In this document: positions 14,243-22,489 of the stretch, one piece after another
Layout of the letters: every line of letters starts with the position of its first letter
Position numbering within the stretch: the stretch's first letter is position 1
Assembly: GCA_014382585.1 (NCBI GenBank)
Contig: JACNJL010000027.1
Span: 1-40,741, forward strand
Source: Limisphaerales bacterium
GTDB lineage: Bacteria > Verrucomicrobiota > Verrucomicrobiia > Limisphaerales > UBA1100
Direction: 5' to 3'
DNA: 40,741 bases
Position numbers and translations under genes: made by a program
The notes under the pieces: model-generated
Told to the model about the DNA's origin: nothing
The model's database searches: none
Seen by the model: the letters and a program-made list of their open reading frames with translations, nothing else

Positions 14243-14270
14243 TTGACAATTGAGGCGCAACGCCTAATTT
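14243..14270 (+). promoter_or_regulatory. sigma-70-type promoter of the tetR-efflux operon
   Basis: TTGACA at 14243-14248 is a perfect -35 box, and TAATTT at 14265-14270 is a fair -10 box after a 16-base spacer. The spacer also contains AGGCG-CAA-CGCCT (14253-14265), which could act as a weak terminator for fmt. The predicted start of transcription, around 14277, falls inside the inverted repeat that follows, a layout that fits repression by blocking RNA polymerase. Confidence 0.6.
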
Positions 14271-14272
14271 GA

Positions 14273-14306
14273 GCACCTGATTCAAACGATTGTTTGAATC
14301 AGGTGC
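14273..14306. promoter_or_regulatory. perfect 15+15 bp inverted repeat, probable TetR operator
   Basis: The left arm GCACCTGATTCAAAC (14273-14287) and its exact reverse complement (14292-14306) flank the spacer GATT. The right arm ends one base before the tetR ATG at 14307. The core CAAAC-N4-GTTTG resembles sites of other TetR-family repressors such as PsrA. Its position just after the -10 box suggests autoregulation. In RNA it would also fold into a hairpin that covers the leader, and there is no separate Shine-Dalgarno site. Confidence 0.75.
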
Positions 14307-14942
14307 ATGAAACTGAAGGATACAAAACGTGATATCTTAGATGCCGCTGAACTCTTATTCGCGGCGCGCGGCCCTCAAGCCACCTCGTTAAGGCAAATTA
14401 TTGGCCGTGCCAAAGTGAATTTGGCGGCGGTCCATTACCATTTCGGGAGTAAGGAATCTTTGTTGCAAGCGGTCATGTCACGACGGCTCGTGCCGTTAAA
14501 TGCTGAACGTCTCGCGTTATTGGAGGAACAAGAACGTGCTTACGGACGCCGCCCGGTTCCATTGCGTAAAGTGCTTGGGGCGTTGGTGGGGCCGGCGCTT
14601 CGGCTGAGCCGCAATCCCCAAAAAGGCGGCGCGGTGTTCATGCAATTATTGGGCCGCTGTTTTATGGAACCGGATGCAAAAATCCAGGCGATGTTGGATC
14701 GTCAGCTGGAGGAGGTGGCCGGTCGGTTTATTCCGGCGTTGCGACGGGCGTTGCCGAAATTACCGGAGGAAGATTTTTTTTGGCGGATTCATTTTCTGGT
14801 GGGCGCAATGGCGCACACGATGGCAGACGCTGAGCGATTGCGTTCATTTTCCGGTGGGCGCTGTGATCCGGATGACACGGAAGCTATGGTTGATCATCTG
14901 GTGATTTTTTTATCCGCCGGGTTCAAGGCGAAATCACGGTGA
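14307..14942 (+). CDS. TetR-family transcriptional repressor
   Basis: The 211-residue protein has a TetR-type N-terminal DNA-binding domain: a first helix with ILDAAELLFAARG and a helix-turn-helix at about 27-46 (TSLRQIIGRAKVNLAAVHYHF) ending in the usual YHFGSKESLL. The C-terminal ligand domain looks like the CerR/YbiH-type group by its spacing and RQLEEV-like helix, but this is weak. It is the first gene of an operon with an outer-membrane factor, a membrane-fusion protein and an RND pump, and a perfect palindrome abuts its start codon. It probably represses its own operon and is relieved by a pump substrate; the ligand is unknown. Confidence 0.9.
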   Translation: MKLKDTKRDILDAAELLFAARGPQATSLRQIIGRAKVNLAAVHYHFGSKESLLQAVMSRRLVPLNAERLALLEEQERAYGRRPVPLRKVLGALVGPALRLSRNPQKGGAVFMQLLGRCFMEPDAKIQAMLDRQLEEVAGRFIPALRRALPKLPEEDFFWRIHFLVGAMAHTMADAERLRSFSGGRCDPDDTEAMVDHLVIFLSAGFKAKSR

Positions 14943-16366
14943 ACACGCGTGCCATTATTTTTGTTGAGCTGATTCTCGTCAGTCTGCTGGGAGGTTGCGC
15001 CGTCAAAATGCCTGTGCGTTCAGGGTTCTCACTGGAACTCCCGGAACAATGGACGTCGGGTGCGGGTTCCACCAATGCGCTGACCGCCGACTGGTGGAAA
15101 TCATTGGGCAATTTCGAATTAAACGGATTGGTTCAAGAAGCTCTGATCAATAATCCGAATTTACAGATTACAGCTGTTCGCCTTGAGCAGGCGCGTTTGC
15201 GGCAACGGATTGCGAGCGCGGATCGACGGCCTTCATTGAATGCCTCATTGGATTCAAATAAAAAACGCAGCAATTTCATCGGGTTACCGATTGGCGGGGC
15301 GTCTGTGTTAACCTCGCGATCAGAAAATTACGGATTTATGCTGTCCAGTAATTGGGAAATGGATGTGTGGGGTCGCATCGGTGCCGGGCAGTTGGCAGCG
15401 TCGATGGACACAGCCGCGGCGCGAGCGGAACTGCGGGCGGGGAAGCAATCACTGGCTGCCCAAACGGTGAAAGCGTGGATTGCATTGACGGAAGCGCGTG
15501 AGCAACTTGATTTGGCAGCGGCAAATGTGGAGATTCTCGAAACGAGCACGCGACAGGCTGATATACGCCTTGGGCTTGGAGTGGGGTCGGCGTTGGATTT
15601 GCGTTTGGCGGAGACAAACCTCTCGGCCACCCGTGCATTGGTTGAGCAATGGCGATCTTCACGGGCTCGGGCGCAGCGACAATTGGAAGTTTTGTTGGGG
15701 AGATATCCTGAAGGTGTGTTGGTCGGGGTGCCTGTTTTACCGGAATTACCACCGGCGATGCCCGCGGGCCTGCCATCCCAATTGCTCACACGTAGACCTG
15801 ATATTTTGGGTGCGCATAGTCGGTTAATTGCTGCCGATGCTCGTACGGTGGTGGCGAATGCGGAGTTGTACCCAGTTTTTTCACTGACCGCTTCGGGCGG
15901 AACGTCCAGCGATGAGCTTGAGAATTTACTGAACAATCATATGCTCGTGTGGTCTCTTGGCGCAAATTTGACGCAACCGATTTTCAACTCTGGGCGGTTG
16001 CGCGCCAATGTGAAGTTGCGGCAGAGTTTGGCAAACGAGGCGGTGAGCCAATATCGTAGTACGATTCTTAATGCATTTGCTGAGGTTGAAACGGCATTAA
16101 ATAATGAACGGTTATTGAGTGAGCGTGAGGCGATGTTGGCTGATGCGGCGGGCAAAGCCGCTCAGGCGTTTGAGCTGGCTGGAGACCGTTTCTCACGGGG
16201 ATTGGAGCCGTTCGCGCGGGTGCTCGATGCGCAACGGCGGGTCAACGAATTGCGCGGTCAAAAGGTTGGGGTGCGTCGCTTGCTTTTGGAAAATCGAGTG
16301 AATCTTCACTTGGCATTGGGGGGTGGGTTTGATCTCCCGCAAGCAGAGGCGGAGGGGAGGCAATGA
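14939..16366 (+). CDS. outer-membrane efflux lipoprotein (NodT/OprM family)
   Basis: This is the TolC-type outer-membrane channel of the tripartite pump. It begins with a GTG that overlaps the tetR stop by 4 bases. A signal peptide ends in the lipobox LGGC with Cys20, so the channel is probably lipid-anchored like OprM. Two repeated OEP domains are visible, each with long amphipathic helices (e.g. LRLAETNLSATRALVEQW, and AEVETALNNERLLSEREAML), together with RRPDILGAHSRLIAADARTV between them. At 475 residues it is normal for NodT-family factors. It exports substrate handed over by the adaptor and pump encoded next. Confidence 0.93.
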   Translation: MNTRAIIFVELILVSLLGGCAVKMPVRSGFSLELPEQWTSGAGSTNALTADWWKSLGNFELNGLVQEALINNPNLQITAVRLEQARLRQRIASADRRPSLNASLDSNKKRSNFIGLPIGGASVLTSRSENYGFMLSSNWEMDVWGRIGAGQLAASMDTAAARAELRAGKQSLAAQTVKAWIALTEAREQLDLAAANVEILETSTRQADIRLGLGVGSALDLRLAETNLSATRALVEQWRSSRARAQRQLEVLLGRYPEGVLVGVPVLPELPPAMPAGLPSQLLTRRPDILGAHSRLIAADARTVVANAELYPVFSLTASGGTSSDELENLLNNHMLVWSLGANLTQPIFNSGRLRANVKLRQSLANEAVSQYRSTILNAFAEVETALNNERLLSEREAMLADAAGKAAQAFELAGDRFSRGLEPFARVLDAQRRVNELRGQKVGVRRLLLENRVNLHLALGGGFDLPQAEAEGRQ

Positions 16367-17622
16367 TGCGACGAGTGTTACAAGTTGCCTTGCCGGTTTT
16401 CGTGCTCGGAATCGGCCTATATGGTTCTTGGTGGTTGACGACTCATCGCAAGACGGTTACTGCGAAGTCATCGGAACGGTTTAAGCCGAGAGTGGAATCG
16501 CTGTCCGTGAAGCGGGTGACATTCCGGCCGGAAATCCATTCGCAAGGCACGGCGATGCCGCGCCGCGAAATCGGACTGTCACCGGTAGTAAGCGGTCGGG
16601 TGGTTTGGGTTTCGCCGCAACTGGTGGTGGGAGGTTTATTTGATCAGGGCACCGAATTGGTGCGGATTGATCGTGGTGATTACGAATTAGCGTTACGCCA
16701 AGCGACTGCGGATATTCAAACGGCGCAGGCAGGGATGACGAACGCTCTGGCAAAAGTGGCCAGTGGTGTGGCACAGGTCGCCCAAGCGCAGGCTTTGATT
16801 ACCCGTGAAGAAGCTGAGGCTGCCGCCGCGCGTGCGGAATGGAAATTGCTGGGCCGCAAAGGTGAGCCGGCGGCACTATTGGTGCGTGAGCCGCAGTTGC
16901 GCGAAGCTCGAGCGACAAAAGCCTCGGCGGAAGCATTGACGGGAGCTTCACGCGCGCAATTCGAATCAGGGAAGGCGGTATTGGCAGCAGCGGAGGCAGT
17001 GCGGGATCAAGCGCTGGTCAACCTCAAACGATGTCAATTGTTTGCGCCATTTAAAGGGCGTGTTCAATCTCAATCCATCGGCTTGGGCCAACTCGTTTCG
17101 CGGGGCAGTGTGCTGGCGAAAATCCAGCCGGTGGCTGTAGCTGAAGTACGTTTGCCATTGCCGATTGGGGAATTCAAATATTTGGATTTGAACGAGGCGA
17201 TGCGGGGCGGGATCGTGGATGGGCCGGAGGTGGAACTTAGCTCGGGCGGGGAAATCTGGGGCGGGAAAATTGTGCGTGCGGAAGGTGAAGTGGACACCCG
17301 CACTCGAATGATAACGGTTGTGGCAAGCGTGCCCGGTCCGTATGCGTCGGGGAAGCCGCCATTGAGTTTCGGAAGGTTTGTGAGGGCGCGGATTGATGGG
17401 CGCGCAATGGAGGGCGTGGTGGTGCTGCCACGGGCAGCGTTACGTGAAGGCTCAGGTGTTTATGTGTTGCGCAACGGCAAATTATTTTCTCAGCCGGTCA
17501 CTCTTGCGTGGAGTGATCGTGCTCGGGTGGTGATTGATTCCGGCCTCAAGGAGGGGGAGCGGGTTTGTCTTTCGCCGTTGGATTCGTTTGTGGAGGGCAT
17601 GGAGGTGCGGTCGGATGAATAA
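16363..17622 (+). CDS. RND efflux membrane-fusion protein (periplasmic adaptor)
   Basis: This HlyD/AcrA-family adaptor bridges the RND pump and the outer-membrane channel. It has one N-terminal membrane anchor (about 7-25) and no lipobox. A first half-lipoyl segment (SPVVSGRVVWVSPQLVVGGLFDQG), an alpha-hairpin at about 110-225 rich in Ala, Gln and Glu, and the second half-lipoyl segment (LFAPFKGRVQSQSIGLGQLVSRG) follow in order, then a beta-barrel and a membrane-proximal domain (GVYVLRNGKL). It has 419 residues. The start overlaps the upstream gene by 4 bases and the stop overlaps the pump gene by 8. Confidence 0.92.
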   Translation: MMRRVLQVALPVFVLGIGLYGSWWLTTHRKTVTAKSSERFKPRVESLSVKRVTFRPEIHSQGTAMPRREIGLSPVVSGRVVWVSPQLVVGGLFDQGTELVRIDRGDYELALRQATADIQTAQAGMTNALAKVASGVAQVAQAQALITREEAEAAAARAEWKLLGRKGEPAALLVREPQLREARATKASAEALTGASRAQFESGKAVLAAAEAVRDQALVNLKRCQLFAPFKGRVQSQSIGLGQLVSRGSVLAKIQPVAVAEVRLPLPIGEFKYLDLNEAMRGGIVDGPEVELSSGGEIWGGKIVRAEGEVDTRTRMITVVASVPGPYASGKPPLSFGRFVRARIDGRAMEGVVVLPRAALREGSGVYVLRNGKLFSQPVTLAWSDRARVVIDSGLKEGERVCLSPLDSFVEGMEVRSDE

Positions 17623-20600
17623 TATTATTGAATGGTTTGCGCGCAATCGAGTGGCGGCAAATTTGCTCGCGGCGTTTTTTATAATAGCCGGGTTGCTGGC
17701 GATCCCAAAGATTAAACAGGAAGTGTTTCCGGAGTTTGATTCAAATTGGGTTTTAATCGAGGTGCCCTATCCCGGCGCGGCCCCGGAGGAAACCGAGGAG
17801 GGTATCTGTGCGCGCGTGGAACAGGCGGTGCAGGGATTGGAGGGCGTAAAGCAAATGGTATCTACCGCGGCCGAGGGGGCAGGGGTGGTAGCGATCGAAT
17901 TACTGCCGCGCGCGGATGGCCAAAAGTTTCTGGATGAAGCGAAGGCCAAAGTGAATGCGATCGACACGTTTCCCAAAGAAGCAGAAAAGCCTGTCATCAG
18001 TGAAATTATCATCCGCAAACAGGTGATTAATATTGCTGTGAGTGGGGACGTTGGGGAAAAGGCGCTCAAACGTGCGAGCGAACGTGTGCGTGATGAATTG
18101 CTTGCTCAATCGGGGATTACTCAGGTGGAGCTGGTTAACGTGCGTCCATACGAAATTTCCATTGAGTTACGCGAAGATGAATTGCGACGGTTTAATCTGA
18201 CCTTCGATGAAGTGGCGGCCGCGGTGCGTTCCAGTTCGCTCAATCTCCCGGCGGGTACGTTGAAGACCTCCGGTGGTGATATTCTGTTGCGAGCAAACGC
18301 TCAGGCTTACGAACAGATCGATTTTGAATCAGTGCCGCTCCGGACACATCCCGATGGGAGCCGCCTTACACTCGGCCAAGTGGCACGGGTGAAAGACGGT
18401 TTTGCAGAGGTCGATTCGCACGCACGTTTTGACGGGAAACCTTCGGCCTTGGTGCGTGTGTTTCGGGTGGGCGACCAAAGTGCGCTGGATATTTCACGAT
18501 TCGTTAAGCAATACGTCGCCACCGCACAGCCTCATATGCCCGCAGGCATTTTTTTGGAAACGTGGCAGGACGATTCATCTTATCTGCGAAGTCGACTGGA
18601 CCTTCTTTTGCGCAACGGACGGGCGGGACTGGTGTTAGTGTTTTTTATTTTGGCACTATTTCTCCGGTTTCGATTGGCAATGTGGGTGACCTTCGGGATC
18701 CCTGTTTCATTCCTCGGCACATTGTGGTTAATGCCGGCGATGGATGCATCGATCAGTTTAATCACGCTGTTTGCCTTTATTGTGGTGCTCGGTATTGTGG
18801 TGGATGACGCCATTGTGTTGGGCGAAAACATTTACACTCATCAGGAAAAATACGGACCGGGAATCAAAAGCACCATCAGCGGAGCGCTCGAGGTGGGGCG
18901 ACCTGTAATCTTTGGAGTGCTCACCACAGTGGCAGCGTTTTACCCACTGCTTGCAATCGAGGGAAATACCGGAAAAATCTTGAGATATATTCCAATGATT
19001 GTGATGCCGACACTGTTGTTTTCATTGGTGGAATGTTTATTTATTTTGCCGGCTCACTTGCGGAATTTGCCCGATATAAAAAAAGAAAAAAAACCGGGTC
19101 CATGGGCAAGATTTCAATCCGCATTCGCCGGAGGTGTTGAGCGGTTCATATTGAAGGTGTACCAGCCCTTCCTGGAGACGTGTTTGCGCTGGCGATATCT
19201 CACTCTTTCAGTTGGGGTAAGCGCGCTATGCCTCACCCTTGCGGGTTATGCCGGCGGCCATTTCAAGTTCATTTTTTTTCCACCGGTAGAGGGTGATAAC
19301 GTTGCCGCGTGGGTTAGTTTTGCCCGCGGAACGCCGGTGGAAGCCACCGAAAAGGCGGTGCAACAATTGGAAAATGCCGCGAAACAGTTGCAGCTAGAAA
19401 TAACGGCCAGCGGCAATGATGACACCAATGCCATACTTCATTCGCTATCGAGTATCGGGCAGCAACCTTTCCGAATGGAAGCGGAAATGGCGGGGGGTAA
19501 TTATGAGGCAAGTCATTTTGGCAGTCACAAAGGGGAGGTTCATTTGGAAGTGTCGCCTTCAGAAGAGCGCGGCATAACAAGTCAGGCGATGGCCGATCGC
19601 TGGCGGGAATTGGCTGGTGATTTTTCCGGGGCCACGGAAGTGGGTTTCAGTGCCAGTATTTTTTCTGCGGGAAAACCAATCAACATCAGATTGAGTGGCC
19701 CGGACCTCCCGGCGCTGAAGGCCGCTACGGAACAGTTGAAAGCCCGGCTCAGAAATTACCCCGGCGTGCAGGATGTCACGGATACGTTTCGAAGGGGTAA
19801 ACGCGAATTAAAAATCAAGCTGAAACCCGAGGCTGAGCTGCTTGGGTTGCGTCAAGCCGATCTTGCGCATCAAGTTCGGCAGGCGTTTTACGGTGAGGAA
19901 GCCCAACGCGTGCAGCGCAATCGGGATGACGTGAAAGTGATGGTTCGGTATCCGCCCGATCGACGCCGATCGGTGCACGACCTCAGCGATTTACGTGTCC
20001 ATACGCGGAGTGGATTTGAGGTCCCATTTTCAGAAGTGGGCGAGACTCAAGAAGACCGTGGGTATGCAAGTATTCGGCGAGTGGATGGCCGGCGCTCGGT
20101 AAATATTACTGCCGATGTGGATATCACCCAAATAGAGCCTAACAAACTGATCACCAGTTTGGAGGCAAATGATTTGCCAAAATTGGCCGCGGAATTCCCA
20201 GGCCTTCAACATAGTTTCCAAGGCGCGCGTCAGGAGCAAGAGCTCACACTTAACAGTATGTTCCGGTCATTTCTGGTTGCGATGGTGATGATTTACGCGC
20301 TACTGGCAATTCCGTTTGGGTCTTACATTCAGCCCTTTATCGTGATGATGGCAATCCCGTTTGGCCTAATTGGCGCGGTGTTGGGGCATTTGATTATGGG
20401 GATGGAGCTGACGGTGCTTTCGATGTTCGGCGTGGTGGCACTTACCGGTGTGGTGGTGAACGACAGTCTCGTGATGGTGGATTTTGTGAATCGCAATCGT
20501 CCGAAATACAAAGAAATCATCGACGCGGTTCGCGTGAGTGGTGTGGCGCGTTTTCGAGCAATTATGCTTACTTCACTTACCACCTTCGCAGGGCTGACGC

Positions 20601-20794
20601 CGCTGGTGTTTTTTGAGGAAAGTGTGCAGGCTCAGTTTCTCGTTCCGATGGCCGTGTCGATTGGCTTTGGTGTGATGTTTGCCACCCTGGTCACGTTGGT
20701 GCTCGTGCCTTCGTTTTACATGATCCTGGAAGACCTCCGCGCCAGTTGGCAGTGGCTTTACGGGACGCCCGCTGTCGAGCCCGAAAAAGGGTGA
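17615..20794 (+). CDS. RND-family efflux pump, inner-membrane permease
   Basis: This 1059-residue proton-driven transporter belongs to the HAE-1/AcrB superfamily. The N-terminus MNNIIEWFARNRVAANLLA begins at the first membrane helix; an upstream in-frame start at 17534 would add 27 residues overlapping the adaptor gene and is not needed. The proton-relay pair D397-D398 in GIVVDDAIVLGEN corresponds to D407-D408 of AcrB. The opposite relay helix has GVVVNDSLVMVDF, without the Lys found in AcrB at that helix. Two large periplasmic loops and twelve predicted helices are present. The substrate class is not clear; it belongs to the broader acriflavine-type group, not a recognisable heavy-metal pump. 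Confidence 0.93.
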   Translation: MNNIIEWFARNRVAANLLAAFFIIAGLLAIPKIKQEVFPEFDSNWVLIEVPYPGAAPEETEEGICARVEQAVQGLEGVKQMVSTAAEGAGVVAIELLPRADGQKFLDEAKAKVNAIDTFPKEAEKPVISEIIIRKQVINIAVSGDVGEKALKRASERVRDELLAQSGITQVELVNVRPYEISIELREDELRRFNLTFDEVAAAVRSSSLNLPAGTLKTSGGDILLRANAQAYEQIDFESVPLRTHPDGSRLTLGQVARVKDGFAEVDSHARFDGKPSALVRVFRVGDQSALDISRFVKQYVATAQPHMPAGIFLETWQDDSSYLRSRLDLLLRNGRAGLVLVFFILALFLRFRLAMWVTFGIPVSFLGTLWLMPAMDASISLITLFAFIVVLGIVVDDAIVLGENIYTHQEKYGPGIKSTISGALEVGRPVIFGVLTTVAAFYPLLAIEGNTGKILRYIPMIVMPTLLFSLVECLFILPAHLRNLPDIKKEKKPGPWARFQSAFAGGVERFILKVYQPFLETCLRWRYLTLSVGVSALCLTLAGYAGGHFKFIFFPPVEGDNVAAWVSFARGTPVEATEKAVQQLENAAKQLQLEITASGNDDTNAILHSLSSIGQQPFRMEAEMAGGNYEASHFGSHKGEVHLEVSPSEERGITSQAMADRWRELAGDFSGATEVGFSASIFSAGKPINIRLSGPDLPALKAATEQLKARLRNYPGVQDVTDTFRRGKRELKIKLKPEAELLGLRQADLAHQVRQAFYGEEAQRVQRNRDDVKVMVRYPPDRRRSVHDLSDLRVHTRSGFEVPFSEVGETQEDRGYASIRRVDGRRSVNITADVDITQIEPNKLITSLEANDLPKLAAEFPGLQHSFQGARQEQELTLNSMFRSFLVAMVMIYALLAIPFGSYIQPFIVMMAIPFGLIGAVLGHLIMGMELTVLSMFGVVALTGVVVNDSLVMVDFVNRNRPKYKEIIDAVRVSGVARFRAIMLTSLTTFAGLTPLVFFEESVQAQFLVPMAVSIGFGVMFATLVTLVLVPSFYMILEDLRASWQWLYGTPAVEPEKG

Positions 20795-20848: not shown

Positions 20849-22489
20849 ATGGCACGTAAAGCATCATTGTTGGTCATTTTCATGACCGTTTTCATCGACC
20901 TGATTGGTTTCGGGATCGTGCTGCCGGTGCTACCCCTTTACGCCAAGACTTACGGCGCGGCTGGCATCATCGCTGGCTTCATTGTGGCCTCGTATTCGCT
21001 GATGCAATTCCTTTTTGCTCCGTGGTGGGGGAGGCTGTCCGACCGCATCGGCCGGCGCCCTGTGTTGCTGATTAGCACAGCAGGCGCGTGTATTTCATAT
21101 GTGTTGTTTGCGCTGGCGTGTTATTATGAATCGTTATGGGGCTTGCTCGCCTCGCGAATGGCGGCGGGGGTGTGCGGCGCAAACCTCTCAGTGGCCAGCG
21201 CCTACATCGCGGATATATCACCGCCCGAAGATCGCTCCAAACGCATGGGGCTCATTGGCATGGCGTTTGGCTTGGGCTTCATCGTGGGGCCGGCGTTGGG
21301 CGCGTTAAGCGCAGAATGGTTTGGCGTTACCGGCCCCGGCTGGACGGCGGCGACCATCTGCGGGTTGAATCTCATTCTCGCATATTTTGTATTGGGCGAA
21401 AGTCGGCAGCCCAATAGTGACCCCGCGCCGCCTCCGCCACGCTTGCAACAAGTCACCAACGTGCTTAAGCGCAAACAATTTGGCTGCCTCATCGGCGTGT
21501 TTTTTATGGCCACATTTTGTTTTACCTGTTTTGAATCCACTTTTGTGGTCACGTTTACCGGCACAAAAGAATCTTCAGGGACGTTTAAGTATGAGCACCA
21601 AGTGCACGCGAAATATGATAAAAACCAAATCACGGAAATTCGTAAATGGCATGTGGAGCAGGGAGGGGAAGTGCGCAAGGGCGCGCCCTTGTACACTTTA
21701 GTTACCGTCGAGGGAACCAATGTGGTCGCCGCACCTAAAAGTGGGCGGGTCAGTTATGAAGAAATGCATTTTGTGCCGTCCAATGGAAAGATCGCCTCCA
21801 TTGATTACACGCGGACCATTGCTTATTATATGCTCGTTTTCTGCGGTTTGCTCGGGGCTGTTATTCAGGGGAAATTGATTGGGCCACTAGTTAGCTGGTT
21901 GGGCGAAAAGTGGTTGATTGTTGTTGGGCTTGCGCTATTGGGTGTGAGCTTGGCATGGTTGCCTCTGGCGCAGGCGCCGCATCTTTATATGTTACTCGGC
22001 GCGCTGGCGTTGTTCTCCGTTAGCTCAAGCGTATACCGAGCGCCAACGTATGGTTTGATTTCCCTGAACGCCGGCCCTAATGAACAAGGCGAAATCATGG
22101 GTGTTACTCAAAGCATCGGGAGCCTCGCACGCATTATTGGCCCCTTGTTTGCGTTAGGTTTGTTAGATGTGTCGACCCGTTTGCCCTATTTTATTTGTGC
22201 AGCCGTCGCGGTGATCGCTGCGGTAGTCGCAGCTTTTTTGCTGAAACCCGCGGACAAAGCCGCAATGGTTGCCGCGGCTGAGCTTCGTGAAAAAGAGGTA
22301 GAGGAAAAGACGCCGAATAAGCGAATCAATCTGCGTGACAAGTCGGCTAAAGATTCAGAAACAGAGAGGGGCCCCGTGAAAACTGAAACGCCCAAGCGTA
22401 TTGATTTGCGGGGCAAACCAGCCAAAGAGGGCAACGCAACATCTGACGATCAGCAGAAAGATCAATCAGACGACAAGGCAGGGGAATGA
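20849..22489 (+). CDS. TetA-like MFS transporter with inserted lipoyl-like domain
   Basis: The first 230 and last 150 core residues are a drug:H+ antiporter of the TetA type: MTVFIDLIGFGIVLPVLPLY, motif A GRLSDRIGRRPVLL (61-74), and YIADISPPEDRSKRMGLIG. Between predicted helices 7 and 8, at about residues 245-320 (nt 21581-21808), is an extra domain with KWHVEQGGEVRKGAPLY and VVAAPKSGRV. This is the pattern of a biotinyl/lipoyl barrel-sandwich hybrid, but the lysine position is Glu288. By MFS topology the insert is on the periplasmic side. The cytoplasmic tail has two KRI(N/D)LR(D/G)K-type repeats. It is 546 residues, longer than the usual 400, and lies 54 bases after the RND gene; the next gene overlaps by 4 bases. 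Confidence 0.88.
   Translation: MARKASLLVIFMTVFIDLIGFGIVLPVLPLYAKTYGAAGIIAGFIVASYSLMQFLFAPWWGRLSDRIGRRPVLLISTAGACISYVLFALACYYESLWGLLASRMAAGVCGANLSVASAYIADISPPEDRSKRMGLIGMAFGLGFIVGPALGALSAEWFGVTGPGWTAATICGLNLILAYFVLGESRQPNSDPAPPPPRLQQVTNVLKRKQFGCLIGVFFMATFCFTCFESTFVVTFTGTKESSGTFKYEHQVHAKYDKNQITEIRKWHVEQGGEVRKGAPLYTLVTVEGTNVVAAPKSGRVSYEEMHFVPSNGKIASIDYTRTIAYYMLVFCGLLGAVIQGKLIGPLVSWLGEKWLIVVGLALLGVSLAWLPLAQAPHLYMLLGALALFSVSSSVYRAPTYGLISLNAGPNEQGEIMGVTQSIGSLARIIGPLFALGLLDVSTRLPYFICAAVAVIAAVVAAFLLKPADKAAMVAAAELREKEVEEKTPNKRINLRDKSAKDSETERGPVKTETPKRIDLRGKPAKEGNATSDDQQKDQSDDKAGE
22319..22426 (+). repeat. two-copy repeat in the MFS cytoplasmic tail
   Basis: The blocks KRINLRDKSAK (22319-22351) and KRIDLRGKPAK (22394-22426) are 25 codons apart and match at eight of eleven residues. 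They lie in a charged, probably disordered tail after the last membrane helix. A function such as protein binding is only a guess. Confidence 0.5.

Follow-up and report, generated by a model that had tools for sequence, protein, structure and literature searches.

The closest described counterparts of the locus analysed here are the operators of Pseudomonas PsrA. In P. putida the footprinted PsrA site of rpoS reads TTCAAACN4GTTTGAA, and the site of psrA itself follows C/GAAACN2-4GTTTG/C and lies between -18 and +20; the consensus is given as one dyad, and the portion of that source drawn on here does not state a 13-bp pairing of dyads (PMC13104628). The consensus is described as unchanged in P. 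fluorescens and S. maltophilia, where the regulator binds its own promoter directly (PMC3510223, PMC10304680). Smlt2053, a PsrA relative of Stenotrophomonas maltophilia, is reported to repress its own gene; its promoter holds two PsrA-like inverted repeats, and a further shifted complex is described at higher protein (PMC10304680). Two dimers on overlapping repeats have been described for QacR, CprB and Sulfolobus FadR. Local TetR repressors of RND pumps include AcrR, MtrR, TtgR and SmeT.

The window considered here, the whole stretch of 40,741 nucleotides (40.7 kb) that was analysed, carries a TetR gene that is co-directional with, and first in, an OMF-MFP-RND operon (Table 1). Its product has the Pfam domains TetR_N and TetR_C_30, the latter at 133 bits against a cut-off of 26.3, and its closest solved structure is 2fbq (residues 4-210, E 1.3e-34), which we take to be P. 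aeruginosa PsrA. In its recognition helix the protein is nearly identical to Pseudomonas PsrA: this region reads VNLAAVHYHFGSK in the window regulator and VNLAAVNYHFGSK in 2fbq, with one residue differing in VNLAAV(H/N)YHFGSK. The AcrR and MtrR models match the protein weakly, and its best model match is the NCBIfam PsrA model, at 159.1 bits and thus below the curated cut-off of 300. That cut-off may be narrow, because the model, going by its name, refers to the PsrA of Vibrio, and the score is the reason why we regard the protein, judged by its sequence, as PsrA-like and not as PsrA itself.

The three genes that follow overlap by a few bases each (4 bp for tetR and OMF, 4 bp for OMF and MFP, 8 bp for MFP and the permease, the last figure resting on the assumed ATG at 17615), so a single promoter probably serves all four. 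Beyond the pump, 54 bp past the RND gene, an MFS transporter occupies 20849-22489, and a loop in the middle of this protein has a sub-threshold similarity to a biotin/lipoyl-type domain (PF00364, E 0.011).

Table 1. Coordinates of the features of the tetR-efflux locus, as positions in the window
Feature	Position	Strand	Basis or remark
-35 element TTGACA	14243..14248	+	read from sequence; invariant in 6/6 aligned genus members
-10 element TAATTT, 16-nt spacer	14265..14270	+	read from sequence; TAAATT in most sisters
Degenerate left dyad, 13 bp from core, 6/10 positions	14270..14283	.	dyad scoring
Perfect inverted repeat, 15+15 bp, GATT spacer	14273..14306	.	arm-complementarity check
Core PsrA-type operator (putative), TTCAAAC-GATT-GTTTGAA	14281..14298	.	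equals P. putida rpoS PsrA site; conserved before relatives
Degenerate right dyad, 13 bp from core, 7/10 positions, overlaps start codon	14296..14309	.	dyad scoring
PsrA-like TetR repressor gene (TetR_N + TetR_C_30), 211 aa	14307..14942	+	ORF list, profile and structure matches
NodT-type outer-membrane efflux factor (OMF)	14939..16366	+	profile matches; 4-bp overlap with tetR end
RND periplasmic adaptor (MFP)	16363..17622	+	profile matches; 4-bp overlap with OMF gene
RND permease (ACR_tran)	17615..20794	+	ORF listed 17534-20794; start ATG 17615 assumed

The initial annotation had described a perfect 15+15 bp palindrome around GATT whose right arm ends next to the tetR start codon, and this description holds. 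The arms (14273-14287 and 14292-14306, 15 nt each, sequence GCACCTGATTCAAAC-GATT-GTTTGAATCAGGTGC) are 100% complementary, and the last base of the right arm directly precedes the ATG at 14307. With loops of up to 10 nucleotides this is the longest perfect hairpin of the window, the runner-up having arms of 10 bp. Chance can be set aside as its origin, since 20 dinucleotide shuffles of the window gave longest perfect arms of 8-11 at the same loop limit. A search for further copies, which the annotation had proposed as a check, returned a single occurrence of the full palindrome in the whole genome (3.7 Mb, 70 contigs), the one in the tetR leader. Letter for letter, the core of the palindrome matches the PsrA site of P. 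putida rpoS, and the consensus G/CAAAC(N2-4)GTTTG/C is thereby present in the regulator's own promoter.

The same annotation had placed a TTGACA/TAATTT promoter just upstream. The promoter is there, with TTGACA kept in all six genus members that were aligned and a -10 element that reads TAAATT or TAATTT among them, though a consensus promoter scanner run on the region did not report it; TAATTT carries 3 of the 6 consensus letters and is weak by that measure. As this promoter ends at 14270, transcription should start near 14276-14278, that is, inside the palindrome. A small inverted repeat, AGGCG-CAA-CGCCT at 14253-14265, lies within the promoter spacer and is not kept in the genus alignment. 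Reading the leader also bears out that no Shine-Dalgarno site precedes the tetR ATG. An earlier start of tetR is ruled out by the in-frame TGA at 14295-14297, and the GTG at 14330, which has a Shine-Dalgarno-like AAGGA ahead of it, is out of frame.

Our main reading, to which we give a probability of roughly 0.88, is that the palindrome is an operator at which the adjacent PsrA-like TetR protein would repress its own gene and the efflux operon. A repressor dimer would occupy TTCAAAC-N4-GTTTGAA, over the predicted start just past the -10 element, and would block initiation there, which would lower expression of tetR itself as well as of the overlapping OMF, MFP and RND genes. By analogy with PsrA, release could come from a ligand exported by the pump, for instance a long-chain fatty acid or some other amphiphile. 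Such an autoregulatory operator of the PsrA type would be an ordinary kind of switch.

The box is kept in relatives throughout the order and, within the genus, stands behind the TTGACA promoter. The regulator search found a match in 48 of 58 relatives at E <=1e-3, weak matches to other TetR proteins included, and in 99 of 293 genomes of the order at E <=1e-15. This gave 111 places, of which 99 loci were analysed and 12 left out (G049 and G183 with two fragments each, G002, G093, G218 and G064 with a single fragment or an edge match, an internal stop in G117, weak matches in G136 and G158, and G250:C170). In L013, L014, L017 and L018, four genomes of one genus, the search shows one TGA within the part of the regulator that was aligned. 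A CAAACN4GTTTG box matching at least 8 of 10 positions stands within the 110 bases before the start at 81 of the 99 order-level loci. Where regulator identity is 50% or more, the box is found in 22 of 23 loci and an OMF gene downstream in all 23; at 44-50% identity the figures are 24 of 25 for the box and 20 of 25 for an OMF gene downstream, and below 44% they are 36 of 51 and 7 of 51. Given short flanks and the ends of some contigs, the efflux-gene counts are lower bounds. Scoring of the main dyad was strict for the 81 of 99, and G or C was allowed at both dyad ends in the identity classes as well as in the named-set, non-redundant and own-site scoring used below, so the box counts differ slightly.

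Exceptions to this pattern exist among close relatives and paralogues. L011, at 63% identity a close relative, has a best box of 6/10, no better than shuffles. The ten paralogue loci L107-L116 have best sites of 6-8 of 10, which at 8 of the ten loci are no better than those of shuffles (p >=0.3); the five of them displayed carry the helix VNMAMVHYYFKNK, and this paralogous group is mostly without the box. Several of its leaders have a common motif such as TCAGTTAGTCAGT, perhaps the own operator of this TetR group.

That the operator serves a different regulator whose gene lies outside this locus is very improbable, as the search of the 3.7-Mb genome for TetR_N proteins found one, the window regulator, and as in relatives the box goes along with the PsrA-like helix. 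The site itself is equally solitary. The whole genome has no second box within 1 mismatch, and boxes with up to 2 mismatches number 14, against 19 for a reversed-pattern control. A global regulator was rejected on these grounds: there is genome-wide no excess of sites and no sign of a PsrA-style regulon beyond the regulator's own gene, which for PsrA takes in rpoS and beta-oxidation, so the switch looks local.

Control at the RNA level, which the initial annotation had offered beside control of the DNA, has to be weighed against this. The hairpin abuts the start codon and could limit tetR translation, perhaps mainly on read-through RNA from fmt, which lies on the same strand, ends 79 bp upstream and would yield a transcript with all 15 pairs. 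RNA of 14273-14330 does fold stably (-25.7 kcal/mol, z -7.15), and the missing Shine-Dalgarno site would fit such a role. The stable leader hairpin of the annotation holds for RNA of the whole palindrome and would be shorter in a transcript from the predicted start: beginning at 14276-14278 the RNA would keep 10-12 of the 15 pairs and lose the G+C-rich base of the stem, and from 14278 it forms 10 pairs at -11.2 kcal/mol. The leader of the sister locus L005 also folds (-14.1 kcal/mol, z -2.79), so shorter stems are found outside the window too, and that of L007 folds no better than shuffles (z 1.14).

Conservation also speaks against a role of the RNA. The full palindrome is present in one of seven genus genomes, being absent from the other six at up to 3 mismatches. 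Among the 15 stem pairs in the genus alignment, 7 never vary, 5 depart by unpaired cells only and 2 change on both sides; the pair counts are reached by 131 of 500 shuffles and the pairing measures as a whole by 131-147, and in sisters pairs are lost with no covariation to offset this. A search of Rfam gave no match. Since the arms keep their pairing only to about 8 bp, covariation is lacking and the sisters are without the full palindrome, control at the DNA level is favoured, and this part of the earlier proposal is well supported by homology, operator match and core conservation. We consider control by the RNA improbable and a role for it not supported, although a minor effect, for example on the fmt read-through transcript, may exist. 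An intrinsic terminator or a block of read-through between fmt and tetR is less probable still, indeed very improbable: the stem is stable and sits between two same-strand genes, but no T run follows it on either strand, the scan for terminators does not report it and what relatives keep of it, the core, is a protein-binding motif.

The relatives point to one further property of these operators. The core box often has a second dyad (at least 7/10) exactly 13 bp from the first, on the left at 39 of the 99 order-level loci and on the right at 15, with none at 12 or 14 bp. This spacing was first spotted by eye in a smaller set of loci and then tested on that set together with 71 more. A named set, which also takes in Marinobacter, Halomonas, Burkholderia and Acidobacteria records, has a 13-bp partner on the left in 34 of 80 and on the right in 9 of 80, again with none at 12 or 14; this is a partly separate check, some records being from the same genomes and all having been chosen by the conserved helix pattern. 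Removal of redundancy took 179 loci to 83, of which 71 have a main dyad of at least 8/10, and 44 of these 71 carry a 13-bp partner on either side (23/33 and 21/38 when split by set). Shuffled flanks gave 1.6 such loci on average and 7 at most (n=200) versus the 44 observed. Other spacings are much rarer, with no locus of the 71 at 8-12, 14 or 16 bp, 1 at 15 bp, 11 at 17 bp, 8 at 26 bp and 1-4 at several others within 15-30 bp; a repeated AAAC in the spacer may account for the signal at 17 bp. Loci with the 13-bp second dyad include L018, L020, L022, L026, L145, L183 and L191. The last of these, from Marinobacter lipolyticus, encodes a protein 55% identical to the 2fbq stretch and has two 10/10 dyads at this distance.

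When two dyads stand 13 bp apart, their neighbouring half-sites have one base pair in common (GTTT-S-AAAC). The frequent second dyad suggests two bound dimers at many promoters of the PsrA-type repressors' own genes, and the additional shifted complex of Smlt2053 hints at the same. We lean slightly towards the broader view that PsrA-family regulators from Verrucomicrobia to Proteobacteria would share a two-dyad operator, with centres 13 bp apart and two dimers at the start, and that the window holds a variant of it with one perfect dyad and symmetrical flanks. Literature searches that covered titles and the openings of abstracts found no published statement of the 13-bp spacing.

The outer part of the palindrome is where the operator model leaves something over. 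Complementarity at the 71 non-redundant loci is enriched up to arm position 8 (37/71) and then falls to 18-25 of 71, so that the outer 7 bp of each arm lie outside what is conserved of the operator. A recent local change is their probable origin. Sisters share the left outer arm (for example ACACCTGATTC in L004, CGCCTGATTC in L005, L006 and L008), and the right one, AATCAGGTGC, is peculiar to this genome. At the per-pair background, 7 further pairs would arise by chance at one locus with a frequency of about 0.28 to the 7th power by hand arithmetic, so a chance match is unlikely there. The outer arms could be functional, forming a longer or symmetrical operator in which weak dyads on both sides take extra repressor. 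The window site does score 6, 10 and 7 of 10 for its left, middle and right dyads, the outer two lying 13 bp either side of the core, at the spacing enriched in the family. However, perfect outer arms occur at one of the 71 loci and pairing beyond arm position 8 is at background, and we hold a function of these arms to be rather unlikely. Possibly they stem from template-switch correction of an imperfect palindrome; the operator model itself leaves them unexplained.

Set against the described systems, the locus combines features of several. It shares with the Pseudomonas psrA and rpoS operators the core TTCAAACN4GTTTGAA and a site over the regulator's own start, which in the window is a predicted one. 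Unlike Pseudomonas PsrA, the window regulator has a single strong site in its genome, beside an RND pump, and comes with no sign of a regulon and with a protein score below the cut-off. Smlt2053 governs beta-oxidation genes, whereas the window operon encodes an efflux pump. As with AcrR, MtrR, TtgR and SmeT, the regulator gene adjoins the pump that it is thought to control, but the TetR_C_30 C-terminal domain, the PsrA-type operator and the co-directional gene at the head of the operon set it apart from them. The overlapping dyads of the relatives, and the dimer of dimers that they may hold, recall QacR, CprB and Sulfolobus FadR, with the difference that the dyad spacing here is 13 bp. A literature search on RND pumps under PsrA, or on TetR-RND control in Verrucomicrobia, returned nothing on this system.

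For an efflux operon of a bacterial group that has been little studied, the locus offers a concrete candidate operator together with a candidate regulator, and it would connect an RND pump with a class of regulators known to sense fatty acids. For the family as a whole, the 13-bp pairing makes a simple prediction of how PsrA-type repressors may assemble on DNA.
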